Assembly (NCBI GenBank): GCA_913062575.1
Contig: CAJXVT010000003.1
Location: 1 to 64,000 of the forward strand
Source: an uncultured Flavobacteriaceae bacterium
GTDB taxonomy: Bacteria; Bacteroidota; Bacteroidia; Flavobacteriales; Flavobacteriaceae
Direction: 5' to 3'
DNA length: 64,000 nucleotides
Below are positions 38,132 to 46,487 of the stretch, in pieces. Every line of letters starts with the position of its first letter. The stretch's first letter is position 1. The notes under the pieces are model-generated. The model was not told the DNA's origin and made no database searches. It saw only the letters and a program-made list of their open reading frames with translations. A program made the translations under genes and the position numbers.

Positions 38132-38953
38132 TTAATCGATTTTGTGTCCGCAATTATAACAAAAATCAGCGTCATCATTATGGTTTTCTTTCAAACAATT
38201 TGGGCAAGATTGTGTGTTTGTATGAATTTTTTCGGCTTTAACTATTTCTGTACTCACAATTCCGGTAGGTATTGCAATAATTGCATACCCCATAATCATA
38301 ATAATACTTGCTATAAACTGACCAATTGGAGTATGGGGCGCAATGTCTCCGTAACCAACTGTTGTTAAAGTTACAATTGCCCAATATACACTTCTAGGAA
38401 TGCTAGTAAACCCATTTTCTTCACCTTCTATCATGTACATTACTGTACCTAAGATGATACAAATAATAACTACAAAAAATAAGAATACCGCAATTTTGGC
38501 TTTACTTGCTCTTAGTGCAACTAGCAATCTATTAGAGGCACCAATATATCTTGCTAACTTTAAGATTCTAAAAATCCGTAACAATCTTAACGCTCTTAAG
38601 GCTGCAAGATTGTGAGACCCAACTAAAAACAATGATAAATATTTAGGAATGGTAGATAGCAAATCTATGATACCATAAAAACTAAAGATATATTTAATGG
38701 GGTTTTTTATAGATATTATTCGAAGAATGTATTCTATAGAAAAAAGAAAGGTAATTACCCATTCTGAGATATCTAAAAAACGATGGTATTTGGTATCAAA
38801 GCTTTCAACACTTTCTAACATTACCAAAACAACACTGGCAAGTATTGCAATTAATAAAATAACATCAAATAGTTTACCACCATTGGTGTCGGCTTCATAA
38901 ATTACTTCATGAATTTTATGCCTCCAAGAGGTATTTTGTTTTTGGTCTTTCAA
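38132..38953 (-). CDS. Voltage-gated-type potassium channel with C-terminal zinc ribbon
   Basis: 273 aa; S4-like LRALRLLRIFRILKLARY, selectivity filter TVGYGD, C-term CPNC...CYNCGHKID. Confidence 0.9.
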   Translation of the reverse strand: MKDQKQNTSWRHKIHEVIYEADTNGGKLFDVILLIAILASVVLVMLESVESFDTKYHRFLDISEWVITFLFSIEYILRIISIKNPIKYIFSFYGIIDLLSTIPKYLSLFLVGSHNLAALRALRLLRIFRILKLARYIGASNRLLVALRASKAKIAVFLFFVVIICIILGTVMYMIEGEENGFTSIPRSVYWAIVTLTTVGYGDIAPHTPIGQFIASIIMIMGYAIIAIPTGIVSTEIVKAEKIHTNTQSCPNCLKENHNDDADFCYNCGHKID

Positions 38954-38988: not shown

Positions 38989-41900
38989 TTAATTCTTAAT
39001 AAATATAAAATCTCCACCTTCATCACCAACTCTATAAATTGCTTTATGTAGTGGTGTGCTAGGGCTGTTGTTCATTACAGCTTCTTCTATTCTGTTAAAT
39101 AGTTGTCCAGCAGACATGTATAGGTTTTTGTTGTTTTTTAACCTGTCCAATAAATACTCAAGAAAAACACTTTTGTTAGGTACTGTTTTCAATGCTCCGC
39201 TAGTAATTGCTCTTCTACTTTTTAACTCGTATTTCTTTTGAATAGATTTTGGAGATCTCTCCAATGAACGTTGATCACTAAAGATACTTCCACTAAAACA
39301 TGCATCAGAAATTAGTAGGGTATGTTTAGATTTAATTGATCTTATAAAATCTGCAATCTGCGAATTACTAATTAAATTCAAATCAAATTCCATATCTGCA
39401 TCAGAAGGCAACCAATAGCCAATTCTATTGGTTTCATCATAGACACCATGTCCTGCATAAAAAATTAATACATTGTCTTTGTCAGTAACCTTTTTCTTTA
39501 ATTTACTAAACTCTTTAATAATATCATTTGCTTTCGGGTTGTTGTTTAAGAACACAACATTTTCTCTTTTAAAGTTGTAGTTATCAATTAAAACATTTCC
39601 TAGGTCTTTCGCGTCTTTAGTTGGTAATCCTTCTAAACCAGTAATTGCCCCATCACCATAATCACTGACTCCAATTAACAACGCATAATATTTTCCAAAT
39701 CCTGTATCAATTTTTTTATCTTTTGTAACAACAATTGGATCTACTATAACATCTGGAGATTTTCTTTTGATGGTAAATGTTTTTGTTGAGGAAGCTTGTT
39801 TTAAATCTGTAGCTTTTACAATTAAATCATTAGTCCCAATCTTTAAAGGAACGTTTGCAGTAAATGTTCCATTTTCTAAAACAGTTGCCTCAATTCCATT
39901 AACAATTATTTCATAAATTCCATCTTTATCAGTTGCAATACCTTTTACGAGTATTCTTTTCGTTTTTACAATTTTAAATCCACGCTGTACAGTTGGTTCT
40001 GTTATTACAACAGCAGGTGGTGTATTAAAACTAGCTGCAGGATAGATTATGTTTAGGTAATTTATCGAGATTTCTTGTTTTTTATAAACACTAAATCCCA
40101 TGTAATTTCCAAAGAATGGACTATAGGGAGCTTCATTAATATATTGACCGTTGATGTAAATTCTTAAAAGTTTACCAGATTTAATTATTTTAATTCTGTT
40201 TTCTTGGTGAGAACTTGTTTTTAGTGTTGTTGTACTGGTCCATGGAATTAATTTGTTAGAAGTGTCGTTTTCTAATTTTCGTAGTAAATAACTACCACCT
40301 TTAGATAAAAATAAATCAAATTGGTTGGTGTTGTTCTTTCTCCCAAAAGAAAAAGCAACCGATCCGCTAGAGTCGCTTGTAAGTCTAGTAATAGACGTTT
40401 CAATAATAAAATCTCTACTCGTATCTACATCAATTTTTTTACTGATAAATGCACCGCCTTTTTCAGTATTACTTTTCAAGTATAATTTACCATTACTAAT
40501 GCTTGACTTTACATTTGTTAGATCTGTTAAGTTCCAACCATTATTATTATTTGTGAACCCTTCGTACAAAGGAACTTTTAAGGTATTTGTAGTAACAATA
40601 GTATTTGTAGCCTTCTTTAAATATTTAATAGTGATATTGTCAACTCCAATTTTTTGTTTATTAAAAACTACATACCCTAATCTATGCCCATAAAAAGACT
40701 CGAAATTTGTTTGTGTTAAGTACTTATTATTTACATAAAATTTATAATGGTCACCTTCTTTTCTGATTTTTAATCTATTTAAAACTCCATTTCCAGTTTT
40801 AACATGTGAAGATTTCACAAACTTTTTTATAATCTCTTCTTTATTGTTAACTACACGAACAATTTTATAATACCCATTACCAGTTAGATAAAATCTAAAA
40901 CTATTTTTGCCTTCTTTACCCCATTGAAAACCATAGGAGTAATTTGTAACTCCACTAATTTTTTTAATGTTGGTAACAATTTCAAAATCTCTAGAAGTAT
41001 CAATTGTTTTTGGAATGTTTATTGCCCAGCCTCCAGAGTCTTTTAAGTGTTCGAAATTATAGTAACTGTTAGCAACATCTGTTTTTTTATCTGATGTGTT
41101 ACCTAATGGCCAATTGTTTTTATTATCTGTAAAGTAGTCAGCTATAACGGTGTCTCCGGTGGCAATAGTTGGTGTGTTCTTTTTTGTGTCTTTTTGATTT
41201 ATATAGGTTACTTTAAAATTATCAATGGCAATTTTTTGATTGTTATAGACCATAAAGCCTAAATGTTTCCCCATAAATGGTTTATGAGTATATAAAGTCA
41301 AATAGCTGTTATTTACATAAAACTTAATAAAGCCTCTTTCTTTTTTTATTTTTAACGTGTTATAGGCATAGTTTCCTGTTTTTATTGCAGATGATTTCGT
41401 CCAATCTTTTAGAGAAATATATTTACTGTCTTTGTTTTGACCTATTGTATAAGAGCCATTTGAATTAATTATAAATATAAATTTATTCAAGTCGTCTTTT
41501 CTACCAAAAACAAAACCATAACCGTGATTGCTAATTCCACTTATCTTTAAGAATTTAGATTCAATTTCAAAATCCTTGCTCGTATCAATATTAATCTCTT
41601 TTGTTGATGTAAAACCTCCTTTTGTTTTTTTATGATCAATATAATATTTGTTGCTTTTTACTACTAATTCAGACGTATCTGAATTATTTGTTGTCCAGTT
41701 ATTTTTGTTTGTGGTAAAATCATCCTCCCATATAACAGTACTAGAAGTTGTTGTATTTGTAACTTTCTTTTTGACATCTAAATACGCCATGCTTAAGTAA
41801 GCAATATACACAGTTTGTTTATTATTAGCAGAAAACCCAATTTGATATCCATAAATTTTAGTAGTATAACTCGTATAAACAATTTTACTATTGATTAAAT

Positions 41901-42942
41901 ACTCTGTTTTGCTACCTTTCTTTCTTACTGTTAAGGTGTTAAAAACACCACTACCAGTTTTAATATGGCTAGATTTTGTCCATTTTTTAACAATCGTACT
42001 TTGGTTATTCTCATATTTAATTATGGTATATGAACCATTACCAGAAACGAGAAATGAATTACGGTTTTTAGTGTCTTTTCTTCCAAAAACTAACCCATAT
42101 CCATGATTTAATACGCCATTTACTTTTTTTATCTGTGCACTAATTCTAAAATCTCTTGAAGTATCAAATTTCTTTTCTATAGTAGAAGACCATGTACTAG
42201 TTACACTTTTATGCTCTAAGATATAATTACCTCCAGATACTTTAAACGTTGCATTTGCATCGTCTTTATGTGACCAATTATTATTGTTATTGTTAAATCC
42301 TTCAAATAAAATAGTTTTAGATTGTGTAGTTGTACTCTTACCTTGTTTAACTTTAAAATAATCTACAGCTACTTTTTGTTTGTTATAAACTAAAATTCCA
42401 ATTTTTTTACCAAAAAAGGGCTTAAAGCTTTGAGTTGTAACGAGTGTACCATTGATATAATAGTACATACTACTTCCTTTTTTTACAACTTTTAATTTGT
42501 TGTACGCATAATAACCAGTTTTTATACTGCTAGAAGTTGTCCAGGCCTTTATCGTTTTAAAAGTACCATCTTTTTTTTCTGAAACACGATATTGGTCCTT
42601 GCTTAAAACAAAATGATAGGTATTGTCACGGCCAATTGCACCATACATTAAACCGGTAGCATTTGTTTTTGAGCCTGAGATTTTTTGAAAAGACATTTCT
42701 ATTTCAAAATCTTTATTGGTGTCAATATTAATTTCTGGTGTCCTAACATTCCAATTTTTATCATCCCTAAAATGTTCAAAGTAATATTTACCATTTTTAA
42801 CTTCTAAGCTTCTGTCTGAACTTGTTGCTACAGGCCAAGTACCTTTAGTCGTAAAATGTTTACTATAAATCTCTTCTTGAGCATAGGTTGCAACGGTAGA
42901 TATTGATAAAAAGAAAGCTAATAGGATTATTTTAGTTTTCAT
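38989..42942 (-). CDS. Secreted multidomain caspase-family (peptidase C14) protein: five tandem ~190-aa repeats, Ig-like domain, C-terminal caspase domain
   Basis: 1317 aa; signal peptide to TYAQ; repeats aa 23-976; caspase domain KYYALLIGVSDYGDG...IFYAGHGVYDE...LLISDACFSGS. Confidence 0.88.
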   Translation of the reverse strand: MKTKIILLAFFLSISTVATYAQEEIYSKHFTTKGTWPVATSSDRSLEVKNGKYYFEHFRDDKNWNVRTPEINIDTNKDFEIEMSFQKISGSKTNATGLMYGAIGRDNTYHFVLSKDQYRVSEKKDGTFKTIKAWTTSSSIKTGYYAYNKLKVVKKGSSMYYYINGTLVTTQSFKPFFGKKIGILVYNKQKVAVDYFKVKQGKSTTTQSKTILFEGFNNNNNNWSHKDDANATFKVSGGNYILEHKSVTSTWSSTIEKKFDTSRDFRISAQIKKVNGVLNHGYGLVFGRKDTKNRNSFLVSGNGSYTIIKYENNQSTIVKKWTKSSHIKTGSGVFNTLTVRKKGSKTEYLINSKIVYTSYTTKIYGYQIGFSANNKQTVYIAYLSMAYLDVKKKVTNTTTSSTVIWEDDFTTNKNNWTTNNSDTSELVVKSNKYYIDHKKTKGGFTSTKEINIDTSKDFEIESKFLKISGISNHGYGFVFGRKDDLNKFIFIINSNGSYTIGQNKDSKYISLKDWTKSSAIKTGNYAYNTLKIKKERGFIKFYVNNSYLTLYTHKPFMGKHLGFMVYNNQKIAIDNFKVTYINQKDTKKNTPTIATGDTVIADYFTDNKNNWPLGNTSDKKTDVANSYYNFEHLKDSGGWAINIPKTIDTSRDFEIVTNIKKISGVTNYSYGFQWGKEGKNSFRFYLTGNGYYKIVRVVNNKEEIIKKFVKSSHVKTGNGVLNRLKIRKEGDHYKFYVNNKYLTQTNFESFYGHRLGYVVFNKQKIGVDNITIKYLKKATNTIVTTNTLKVPLYEGFTNNNNGWNLTDLTNVKSSISNGKLYLKSNTEKGGAFISKKIDVDTSRDFIIETSITRLTSDSSGSVAFSFGRKNNTNQFDLFLSKGGSYLLRKLENDTSNKLIPWTSTTTLKTSSHQENRIKIIKSGKLLRIYINGQYINEAPYSPFFGNYMGFSVYKKQEISINYLNIIYPAASFNTPPAVVITEPTVQRGFKIVKTKRILVKGIATDKDGIYEIIVNGIEATVLENGTFTANVPLKIGTNDLIVKATDLKQASSTKTFTIKRKSPDVIVDPIVVTKDKKIDTGFGKYYALLIGVSDYGDGAITGLEGLPTKDAKDLGNVLIDNYNFKRENVVFLNNNPKANDIIKEFSKLKKKVTDKDNVLIFYAGHGVYDETNRIGYWLPSDADMEFDLNLISNSQIADFIRSIKSKHTLLISDACFSGSIFSDQRSLERSPKSIQKKYELKSRRAITSGALKTVPNKSVFLEYLLDRLKNNKNLYMSAGQLFNRIEEAVMNNSPSTPLHKAIYRVGDEGGDFIFIKN
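40015..42876 (-). repeat. Five tandem protein-repeat units (about 42876-42313, 42312-41737, 41736-41149, 41148-40582, 40581-40015)
   Basis: Recurrent IDTSRDFEIE...YGFxFGRK...GxYxI...W(T)KSSxIKTGN...NxLKIxK...FYVNN...PFxGxxLGFxVYNxQKIAxD pattern in each unit. Confidence 0.85.
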
Positions 42943-42953
42943 AATTTTTTATT

Positions 42954-44405
42954 TTATTGATGATTCATTTCTATAAAAATAGGGACAACTTTGGCATTAC
43001 TACTGGTTGCTTTTGTAGTAAATGCAATTGTATTTTTTTCAAATTTAATATCACTTCCTATAAACATCTTGTATTGTAAGGCTTTTTTTACTCTAGACAC
43101 AAAATCGCCTGAGCCATTTTTAACTGTACTTACAACTTTATTAATGTCTAATTTTTCTTTACTGTATAATACACAAAGGATATCTCTTCCAGGCTTTGAG
43201 TCAAATTCTATAAAATAATCTTCATTAGGTAATGCTATTTCACTATTTGTATAGCTAAAGTAATCACTAAATTTATCAAACGGATATAATTTGCTTACAG
43301 ATTTATCTCCAGAACCATAACCAATTAAATAGACATAGCCTTTTTGTTTACTTTTTAAGTAGATTCTAAACTGAGTGCCAGACGTATAGCTTTTATCTAT
43401 TCTATACGTAGTACCAGTAGCTTTAACAATGTTAAAATTTCTTGAAGCATTGTTAGAAAGAGTTGGTTGCATATTGCTTCCATTACTTAATCGTAAAGTC
43501 ATTTCTCCAGCCAATGCATTATACTTAGTGGTTACATTTGTGTTTACATCAACCTTGGGTTTCTTGGTGTTGTCAATCAATACATATGCCGTTTTTGTTT
43601 GCAGCTTAAAATCACTGTATTTTACCCACATATATCCGCTATTTCCCCATTTTGTACCCCATGAGTTTAAGATTTCAAAAGCGCCTCCGTATTTGTAATC
43701 ATCATAACCTACAACTACCATTGCATGCCCGCCTAACCTTTTAGTCCCATTTGGTCCAGGCCAAACACCTTTTGCTTTATAGAAGGTCGAATAAATTTGC
43801 ATCCCTATAACTACGGGGTTTTTATTAGCAATTGCTTTTTTTACTTTTCCTACTAAATTATATGGGTTATCCCATTTTGCTAACCTTTCATAGGTTAAAA
43901 TAGTATTTTGTTTTGCTTTTTGAAGACCATTACTAGATGGTTTTGAAGCACAATTTGTAGCGTTATAACTAAAATCTTTTAATTGTAAAATACCATTTGT
44001 ATTTAACAGCTTCATTGCATCAGCTATATATGAGCCTTTTTTACAATTTACATCTCCTTTAAACTTTATTAGATTGTAAACAAATGCAGGAGAGAAAGTA
44101 TTCTGATTGATTTTTGTGCTATTATATTTCCAATCATTTTTTATAGCATAAGCAATAGTTCTTGCTCCATAACCACTTGCCCAACCAACACACGATGGTT
44201 GTCTTCCTTGGTTTCCAGGAGTTGGTGCAAAGGCTTTAATACTATAATTTTTTGGAACCGAAGTAACACTTCTAGTAATTAATGGAACGGTCTCAGTAAC
44301 AGATTCATATTTTTCTTTGTTAAAATCTAAACCTGTAAAATATTCCTGGGAACAAATAGCGCTGCTAAAAAGGATCAAAAAGAATGTTAGAGAAAACTTT
44401 TTCAT
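42954..44405 (-). CDS. Secreted papain-like (C1A) cysteine protease with DUF4384-like C-terminal domain
   Basis: 483 aa; signal peptide; NQGRQPSCVGWASGYG (Gln/Cys), RLGGHAMVVVGYDD (His), ILNSWGTKWGNSGYMWV (Asn); YVYLIGYGSGDKSVSKLYP...YFIEFDSKPGRDILCVLYS tail. Confidence 0.85.
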   Translation of the reverse strand: MKKFSLTFFLILFSSAICSQEYFTGLDFNKEKYESVTETVPLITRSVTSVPKNYSIKAFAPTPGNQGRQPSCVGWASGYGARTIAYAIKNDWKYNSTKINQNTFSPAFVYNLIKFKGDVNCKKGSYIADAMKLLNTNGILQLKDFSYNATNCASKPSSNGLQKAKQNTILTYERLAKWDNPYNLVGKVKKAIANKNPVVIGMQIYSTFYKAKGVWPGPNGTKRLGGHAMVVVGYDDYKYGGAFEILNSWGTKWGNSGYMWVKYSDFKLQTKTAYVLIDNTKKPKVDVNTNVTTKYNALAGEMTLRLSNGSNMQPTLSNNASRNFNIVKATGTTYRIDKSYTSGTQFRIYLKSKQKGYVYLIGYGSGDKSVSKLYPFDKFSDYFSYTNSEIALPNEDYFIEFDSKPGRDILCVLYSKEKLDINKVVSTVKNGSGDFVSRVKKALQYKMFIGSDIKFEKNTIAFTTKATSSNAKVVPIFIEMNHQ

Positions 44406-44528
44406 GATGTTGTTTTTTTATACAAACTTGGGTGGGGTTTATATTAATTACAAAAGGTAATTATTTGTATTTTCTATAAAAATAATGAAAAAAAAAGTAA
44501 TATCAAAGTTAACTATATGACATTCAGT

Positions 44529-46487
44529 CTACTTCTTTTCTAATGTGATCAGTGTAGATTGCACCTTTACTATTTGATTAAAAAACTCTTTTAAAGCAAA
44601 ATACTCTTCATTAGTGTATTCAACTTTACTTAAATTGTATTTAAACAAAATGGAAATCTTAGAAGTTGTTTGCTTGATATTAAAAATAAAGTTTCCTCCT
44701 TTATTAGGTAAAGAAAAAGCTCTGCTTTCTGGGAGTTTTCCGATTGTGTAATTAACAGGTATAGAGATACTTGCTCTATATTGATAGTTTAATTTATAAC
44801 CAAAATTAGCAGGGTATAATCGTTTTTCTAACTTAAAAGGATTCGTTGAGATCTTCTCATGAAAGAACGGATTTAAATACAGCTTGCTTAAAGTTGGATC
44901 CGTTGAGTCTTCAAAATTAAAATCAAAATTTTGTGTAATGCTTGTGTTTTTTCTATCTAGATCTGAGGCTTTATAATCATTTATTTCTAATTGATTGTCG
45001 TTTTCATAATCTTCAAGATAGCTGTCTTCATTGGTGTTAGATAACTCGCTTCTTAAAAAATACGCATCATAACCTGTGTTTATTACACGCAATCTTCCTT
45101 TAATCCCCCCCTCTGTAGATATTTTTACACTTAAGTTAATTTTCTCACTAGAAGGAAGTGTACCAGAATTAGGTTGCCAATAACTACCTTTTTTAAAATC
45201 TAATACTCTTACATCTCCGTTTAGGGTTTTGAATGGGGTTTGTCCAAAACTTAATTGTTTGTTAGAGGCATCTAAAAAGTATTCTTTACCTTCTATAATT
45301 ACTTTAACCAAAATATAATTAAACTCTGAGATTACAGGGTATATTTTTGTTGGTTCAGCTCTATCTCTTGTGGTAGATAAAGCAATTTTCGCGTTAAATC
45401 CTGCAGCTATTAAAGCATTCATAAGCGAAACATTAATTTCAGCTACAGTACCAATTTTATCGTTAAATGTCTTTTTGGTGTTAATTTTATAATAAGCAAT
45501 AGATTTATTATTATCAGTAAAATGATCTTGAATAAAATAATATATCTTTTTTGCTTTCTCAATAGTAGAAGTTTCGGATAATAATTCTGGAGGTAAGTTC
45601 TTTTTAAAGAAAGTAGATTTTCTCAATTCAGCACCAAAATATTCTCCAGATTTAAACTTACGGTCTGTAGATTTCCATGTATCAGTATAGTTTTCTTTGT
45701 TACCTCTACTAGAATTAGTGAAAGACTCTAGCTCAAAAGTAATTCTAGACATATAGTTTCTTCTGCTTTTCATATATCCTTCTTCTTTAAAAGCCGGAAT
45801 ATTATTCATTCCAAAAGACAAAACAGAACAACTTGCTTCACTTAATCCAGGTATTTTTACACACCTTCTTATTATAGAGGGCTTGTTTTTGTCTAAAGGA
45901 TAATAGCCTTTTAAACTCACATTGTATTTGTAGTTAGATAAAATTGCAGAATCATATTCGCTTTTAATTTTAGGAATATCAGATTGAAACTCCCAATCAT
46001 CTAATTGATTAAAATAGGGTGTTGTTTTTGTAAAACGGTACTCTAAAACAGAACCTACTTTTATATTTGGCAGTGTAAAAGTTATTGTGTGCCAGTTACC
46101 ATTTTCTTTATTTTTAAAAATATCCTTATCCATTAGATATTTTTTTTCCATTCTATTATTGCCAACAAGGTTATAAGTATAAGCTTCAATATTTTCAATG
46201 GTCTCTTTTTTATAATAAGGAATTTTAATTGTTCCTTTTCCAAAGCCTTCTTTTTTAAGAATCTTTACTCTAAAATAATAATCAGAACTTATATTGTAAT
46301 CTTTACTAGGATCAATAAAAGAATTGTTTTGTTCATATAATACAACAGCTACAGCAGTAGAATCTTTGCTGTAAGTTTTCATTTTTAATTCCTTAACTGT
46401 AGTTAGTCCAGTTTTTACTGATTTATTTCTTTGAGAATAGAATAAAGTTGGCAATAGAAGTAGCAGGAATATTATAGTTTTTTTCAT
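44529..46487 (-). CDS. DUF3857/transglutaminase-like secreted protein, catalytic Cys absent
   Basis: 652 aa; signal peptide; N-terminal DUF3857-like region (GSVLEYRFTKTTPYF), transglutaminase-fold region GTVAEINVSLMNALIAAGFNAKIAL...FNYILVKVIIEGKEYFLDAS. Confidence 0.78.
   Translation of the reverse strand: MKKTIIFLLLLLPTLFYSQRNKSVKTGLTTVKELKMKTYSKDSTAVAVVLYEQNNSFIDPSKDYNISSDYYFRVKILKKEGFGKGTIKIPYYKKETIENIEAYTYNLVGNNRMEKKYLMDKDIFKNKENGNWHTITFTLPNIKVGSVLEYRFTKTTPYFNQLDDWEFQSDIPKIKSEYDSAILSNYKYNVSLKGYYPLDKNKPSIIRRCVKIPGLSEASCSVLSFGMNNIPAFKEEGYMKSRRNYMSRITFELESFTNSSRGNKENYTDTWKSTDRKFKSGEYFGAELRKSTFFKKNLPPELLSETSTIEKAKKIYYFIQDHFTDNNKSIAYYKINTKKTFNDKIGTVAEINVSLMNALIAAGFNAKIALSTTRDRAEPTKIYPVISEFNYILVKVIIEGKEYFLDASNKQLSFGQTPFKTLNGDVRVLDFKKGSYWQPNSGTLPSSEKINLSVKISTEGGIKGRLRVINTGYDAYFLRSELSNTNEDSYLEDYENDNQLEINDYKASDLDRKNTSITQNFDFNFEDSTDPTLSKLYLNPFFHEKISTNPFKLEKRLYPANFGYKLNYQYRASISIPVNYTIGKLPESRAFSLPNKGGNFIFNIKQTTSKISILFKYNLSKVEYTNEEYFALKEFFNQIVKVQSTLITLEKK

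Follow-up and report, generated by a model that had tools for sequence, protein, structure and literature searches.

Two adjacent genes in the 64,000-nucleotide window analyzed here (positions 1 to 64,000 of contig CAJXVT010000003.1, assembly GCA_913062575.1, from an uncultured Flavobacteriaceae bacterium) encode a papain-type (C1A) peptidase with a C-terminal DUF4384 domain and a caspase-type (C14) peptidase, and genome comparison indicates that the two proteins are very probably functionally coupled. Both are also likely to reside in the cell envelope, and it is reasonably probable that coupling and envelope location hold jointly. Judging from the same comparison, the papain-caspase cassette is real and widespread, and it is apparently undescribed; that it constitutes an activation cascade is a proposal, and a good hypothesis, under which the two proteins would form one unit, an exported, sensor-gated two-protease relay in the cell envelope. 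The arrangement on a single strand is as the sequence-only reading of this DNA gave it, and the signal sequences and intact catalytic residues that it reported are present in both proteins, the former according to a script-based hydrophobic-core rule and the latter in alignments. The core of the locus consists of the following features:

42954..44405, minus strand: papain-type (C1A) peptidase with C-terminal DUF4384, 483 amino acids, N-terminal signal sequence (rule-based); the constant partner
42943..42953, minus strand: intergenic gap of 11 bp between the papain stop codon and the caspase ATG, too short for a promoter or terminator
38989..42942, minus strand: caspase-type protein, 1317 amino acids, N-terminal signal sequence (rule-based); the partner with the variable putative sensor

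The pair recurs across bacteria. The main sample comprises 60 non-redundant loci that encode an exported, full-length C1A-DUF4384 protein and have 2.5 kb of flank or more; it was drawn from family and phylum samples and from a species-level scan, with a single genome representing each species, in which an alignment of nine papain-DUF4384 proteins returned 80 loci. In this sample, a C14 gene is directly adjacent on the same strand in 38 loci (a count that may be biased, as discussed below) and located within three genes in 45. The controls are 25 papains that either lack DUF4384 or belong to a membrane-anchored clade with an "MPIR..." non-signal N-terminus; among these, no C14 gene is adjacent and one lies within three genes, inside a C1A-C14 cluster (Fisher p = 7e-9 for adjacency and 5e-10 for the three-gene range). 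The sequence-only reading had called for such a co-occurrence survey, with the lack of a conserved neighborhood as the adverse outcome; the neighborhood is conserved. Pairs or near-pairs are found in Bacteroidota, Ignavibacteriota (L124), Spirochaetota (L141, L148) and Pseudomonadota (L105, L108, L118, L120). Of 46 adjacent pairs, 24 have the caspase gene downstream and 22 have it upstream, most gaps are 20 bp or shorter, and the papain tree shows four or more switches in gene order. This recurrence in four phyla and in both orders, with controls near zero, refutes at the level of the neighborhood the notion that the two are chance neighbors with unrelated functions, an explanation that orphan papain-DUF4384 genes would fit and that retains only a negligible probability. 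A survey of 251 Flavobacteriaceae genomes gave 10 DUF4384 matches over the cut-off; all are papain fusions, eight of them beside a C14 gene and two beside a lipoprotein-M48 arrangement, and neighboring papain and caspase genes occur in the congener G133 as well as in six other genomes. The C14 counts of this survey are lower bounds because the caspases of the source genome and of G133 were missed. The source genome assembly (2.36 Mb, about 68% complete) contains a single over-cut-off match each for DUF4384 and C14. Paired C14 proteins fall into several lineages, and 19 unpaired Flavobacteriaceae C14 proteins form a separate clade.

Several observations weigh against a general coupling. The named genomes were sampled in order of their similarity to an alignment with seven paired members out of nine, hence the possible bias. 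For this reason a second sample was taken, consisting of the full-length exported hits from a phylum-level set of 399 genomes regardless of pairing; in it, a same-strand C14 gene is located within three genes in 11 of the 12 loci (directly adjacent in six), and the twelfth is a lipoprotein variant. C14 is missing from the three-gene range in about a quarter of the exported C1A-DUF4384 loci (L089, L094, L102 and L109 are examples); for the orphan genes, 10 of 11 such genomes carry a C14 gene elsewhere. Coverage of at least 80% of the papain sequence is reached by none of the phage records and by two plasmid records; the two best plasmid matches both come from Persicobacter, and the annotated one is an orphan, with no caspase neighbor. 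The papain and caspase distances are correlated across 44 pairs (Mantel r = 0.64), but this stems from near relatives, and r drops to 0.05 when distant pairs are compared, so that mirror-tree co-divergence was rejected as a deep signal.

Some loci depart from the simple pair. One locus contains three consecutive C14 genes beside a single papain-DUF4384 gene (L204:1178-7810), and another, two papain and two C14 genes in tandem (L206:8293-15160). In Ignavibacteria-like genomes, a secreted, apparently membrane-anchored protein of 160-390 amino acids is encoded between papain-DUF4384 and C14, at these positions:

L207:3901-4401, intervening protein
L208:9079-9564, intervening protein
L209:6942-7454, intervening protein
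L211:9255-10418, intervening protein

In the window, the papain gene precedes the caspase gene, and the corresponding gaps in the nearest relatives are 11, 8, 11 and 9 bp, which leaves no room for an intervening promoter. Just ahead of the papain start codon, TTG-N20-CAnnTTTG is present, exactly or nearly so, in four relatives, a motif that resembles the -33/-7 promoter consensus of Bacteroidota:

44423..44453, minus strand: TTG-N20-CAAGTTTG, a candidate promoter of the Bacteroidota type preceding the papain gene (from the alignment of four relatives)

Given the short gaps and the shared promoter-like motif, the two genes are likely to be co-transcribed. As far as the compared loci indicate, the unit is two genes, papain and caspase. 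The neighboring genes of the window are shared by L083 and the congener L063, whereas in L085 only the papain and caspase genes are kept and the surrounding genes are mostly different. A potassium-channel-like gene follows the caspase gene (window positions 38132-38953) and is also found in L063, L083 and L084, but not in L085; in Ulvibacter, a channel-like gene with 36% identity follows an M48 gene (L066:6347-7060). Upstream of the papain gene, at a distance of 123 bp, lies a gene for a secreted DUF3857/transglutaminase-like protein (44529-46487), which is present in L063 and L083 but not at the corresponding place in L084 and L085. Neither gene was retained as part of the core, L085 lacking both and L084 lacking the transglutaminase gene. 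A small downstream protein of about 160 amino acids was likewise rejected as a general third component, as it splits into unrelated families, namely, the M48-variant lipoprotein, a thioesterase-like protein (named by eye) beside membrane-anchored papains, and a transmembrane protein in the Ignavibacteria-like loci.

The papain belongs to C1A: its Peptidase_C1 match scores 55.5 bits against a curated cut-off of 20.7 (Pfam), and the active-site residues Q66, C72, H227 and N247 are all intact, the Q-C-H-N set being kept in 45 of the 45 paired papains. The relevant positions are:

43155..43388, minus strand: DUF4384 (PF14326), papain residues 340-417, Pfam score 32.0 against a cut-off of 27 bits, 1.3e-7
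44190..44192, minus strand: codon of the catalytic Cys72, C in 45/45 paired papains
43725..43727, minus strand: codon of the catalytic His227, conserved in 45/45 paired papains
43665..43667, minus strand: codon of the catalytic Asn247, conserved in 45/45 paired papains
44271..44345, minus strand: short conserved N-terminal segment, papain residues 21-45, with the pattern TG..FDD..Y..P.KA..TR in relatives; a candidate mini-propeptide

The AlphaFold2 model of the papain has a mean predicted local distance difference test (pLDDT) score of 88, and its top-scoring solved relative is xylellain (PDB 3ois; 8e-13 by sequence, fold TM-score 0.79 of target). The likeness to xylellain, a single-domain C1A peptidase, covers the peptidase domain only; the window papain differs by the added DUF4384 and the operon-like partner. 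The structure paper on xylellain, as it is cited in PMC10380794, has the words "an intriguing activation mechanism" in its title. The hydrophobic-core rule identifies a signal sequence in the window papain and in 40 of the 45 paired papains overall. An inhibitory propeptide of the I29 type is typical of many C1A members, though not of all. The sequence-only reading held that the papain lacks an obvious inhibitory propeptide; this stands for the I29 type, which has no Pfam match in the protein, but a short conserved segment of about 25 residues precedes the presumed mature start. This segment ends at R45, 27 residues ahead of the catalytic cysteine, and is recognizable in relatives (G25 in 58/60, Y33 in 50/60). 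A separate C1A-DUF4384 clade (L214-L219) mostly combines an "MPIR...GGGG" N-terminus with an internal hydrophobic segment and is never found beside C14; several of these loci adjoin a thioesterase-like gene (named by eye) for a protein of about 160 amino acids.

The caspase is a C14 member by its domain score, its His-Cys dyad and the modeled caspase/paracaspase fold. It combines a large N-terminal repeat region with an immunoglobulin (Ig)-like domain and the catalytic domain:

40021..42882, minus strand: five repeats of about 190 amino acids, caspase residues 21-974, the last repeat modeled as a jelly roll
39760..40017, minus strand: Ig-like Glucodextran_B domain, residues 976-1061, ahead of C14, Pfam score 41.2 against 27 bits
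39073..39687, minus strand: caspase (C14) catalytic domain, residues 1086-1290, paracaspase/metacaspase-like fold, Pfam Peptidase_C14 58.5 against 21.4 bits
39448..39450, minus strand: codon of the catalytic His1165, H in 45/46 partners
39298..39300, minus strand: codon of the catalytic Cys1215, C in 45/46 partners

In the AlphaFold2 prediction for the C-terminal part (mean pLDDT 76), the catalytic domain matches MALT1 (3v4o, TM-score 0.69 of target) and the plant metacaspase AtMCA-IIf, and Asp1213, which precedes the catalytic cysteine, is invariant in 46/46 partners. A signal sequence is predicted by the same rule in the window caspase and in 43 of the 46 paired caspases overall. The last repeat, as modeled, adopts a jelly-roll fold similar to that of the carbohydrate-binding module CBM66 (4b1m, TM-score 0.70-0.73 of target), and the copy number of the repeat is five in L083-L085 and four in L063.

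Across the pairs, the catalytic end of the caspase is constant, often with an Ig-like domain (ahead of C14 also in L063, L085, L093, L097, L104, L113, L124 and L135), whereas the N-terminal part differs between lineages. The jelly-roll front is found in the window, L063 and L083-L085, with the same repeat in L104; other fronts consist of WD40 repeats (groups G209 and G106, L108, L130, L141), TPR (L088, L093, L097, L113, L121, L135), Sel1 (L095, L112), WG plus Sel1 (L107) or DUF7477 (L087, L142). For six papains that form one well-supported clade, a lipoprotein of about 160 amino acids takes the place of the caspase; four of these loci continue with M48-type peptidases, from one to six per locus, whose tails differ (TPR, Sel1, TonB_C). 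Examples of the variant are:

L065:4976-9462, lipoprotein-M48 variant
L066:7087-9445, lipoprotein-M48 variant
L129:9723-19669, lipoprotein-M48 variant

Such M48 peptidases in place of the caspase, together with CBM66-like jelly-roll repeats on exported proteins, would also fit co-regulated scavenging, in which the two exported proteases digest external protein or debris without activating each other and the caspase is held on a glycan-rich substrate by its lectin-like repeats. This explanation appears rather improbable, given that many caspase fronts (WD40, TPR, Sel1, WG) are usually protein-interaction scaffolds, that caspase-family proteases are generally site-specific regulators, and that no uptake gene is consistently linked across lineages. 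Under the relay proposed here, the repeat part would keep the caspase inactive until a ligand or damage is met; the CBM66-like jelly rolls of the window protein make a glycan or another envelope component the probable ligand.

The direction of the relay is less certain than the coupling: activation of the papain by the caspase is put forward tentatively, as a nearly even call. The MALT1-like modeled fold and the invariant aspartate before the catalytic cysteine are counted in favor of the relay. Cleavage behind a basic residue (Arg or Lys) is expected of a paracaspase-like caspase, which might cleave the partner papain near R45, a site favored because it lies about 27 residues before the cysteine, roughly where the mature N-terminus of a C1A peptidase would be. 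The papain, with its presumed broader specificity and perhaps docking via DUF4384, would then degrade the actual target. An arginine at papain position 44 or 45 is present in about 73% of the paired papains, but a basic residue near position 45 is also found in 64% of the other papains and is missing from the flavobacterial WD40 clade; on both counts the R45 lead is weak, and the site was rejected as proof of the caspase-to-papain direction because the region is not specific to paired papains. In the reverse relay, the papain, which has no long propeptide and may be active constitutively or process itself, would switch the caspase on by cutting it. The absence of an I29 propeptide, the first position of the papain gene in the window, and the papain being the more constant partner, which pairs with M48 peptidases too, are compatible with this scheme. 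It is nonetheless unlikely: the gene order is opposite in about half of the pairs, the variable recognition part sits on the caspase, as would befit an initiator, and activation in the CaNu system runs from the caspase complex to its partner (PMC12799240).

No type IX secretion system (T9SS) sorting domain was matched in either protein (NCBIfam, E 0.1), so that a T9SS surface location is not supported, and the sensing of surface ligands or a role in gliding-surface remodeling, both raised in the sequence-only reading, lose ground. A soluble periplasmic location is more likely for both proteins, since the signals look Sec-type and there is no sorting-domain match. The same reading also raised competitor defense, for which the comparison with CaNu is pertinent. 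In CaNu, a MALT1-like bacterial caspase complex activates a partner pro-enzyme (PMC12799240), and the likeness extends to the two-enzyme logic, the Ig-like domain of the caspase and the presence of TPR among the locus domains; both catalytic sites are needed in CaNu, and in the window pair both are conserved. The architectural parallel, a second enzyme beside a MALT1-like caspase that carries Ig-like and repeat domains, could point to an envelope anti-phage or anti-competitor cell-death module, similar to CaNu or other caspase defense systems. The partner in CaNu, however, is a nuclease, whereas the partner here is a papain, the proteins are apparently exported rather than cytoplasmic, and no CanC-type gated nuclease or other nuclease is seen at the locus, where the flanking genes are ion-channel-like and transglutaminase-like. 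The neighborhood is of the housekeeping kind, not a defense island, and is largely stable among near relatives, and PADLOC yields a generic caspase match only. A defense role is not supported by these findings and seems quite improbable.

Other known systems share parts of this design. Orthocaspases and prokaryotic metacaspases (PF00656, including cyanobacterial caspase-DUF4384 and caspase-WD40 fusions) have the C14 His-Cys dyad and carry repeats or recognition domains in cis. DUF4384 is an accessory domain of cyanobacterial caspases (PMC7475262, PMC8283722), and its role as a fusion partner of bacterial caspases, which the sequence-only reading mentioned, is borne out by 23 cyanobacterial orthocaspases that carry it in cis (PMC8283722); in the window pair, by contrast, it is in trans, on the papain, and both proteins have export-type signals. 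Weak, below-cut-off DUF4384 matches apparently located in C14-carrying frames (G108:C10:223021-223167 and G015:C187:690-839) suggest that in-cis caspase fusions may occur in Flavobacteriaceae as well. The EACC1-caspase and VMAP conflict systems (eLife 2020, PMC7159879) likewise combine a constant core with highly variable attached domains and pair peptidases with a second gene; unlike them, the window pair has no NTPase core and is apparently exported, and the caspase scores 71.3 against the cut-off of 140 bits of the model for EACC1-associated caspases (NCBIfam NF047832). The word papain is absent from the main text of the 2012 survey of prokaryotic caspases, which analyzed operons, and the eLife surveys of caspase conflict systems mention papain once each, in passages that, as far as they go, do not concern this pair. 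No description of an exported papain-caspase pair was found in the mostly open-access literature, an absence that is not proof.

Taken across lineages, it is possible, and suggested here with some reserve, that papain-DUF4384 is a common executor or hub protease with interchangeable sensor-protease partners, that is, caspases with jelly-roll, WD40, TPR, Sel1 or WG fronts and M48 peptidases with variable tails, in a receptor-gated envelope cascade that would represent an undescribed class of extracytoplasmic caspase signaling. Most bacterial caspase homologs have no known partner or trigger. The pair gives the exported ones a conserved candidate partner enzyme, the active sites of both proteins being intact and the recognition part exchangeable, and DUF4384 gains a concrete hypothesis, that of an adaptor between the caspase and its partner. 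If the relay exists, bacteria would possess a cascade of the caspase-cathepsin type.

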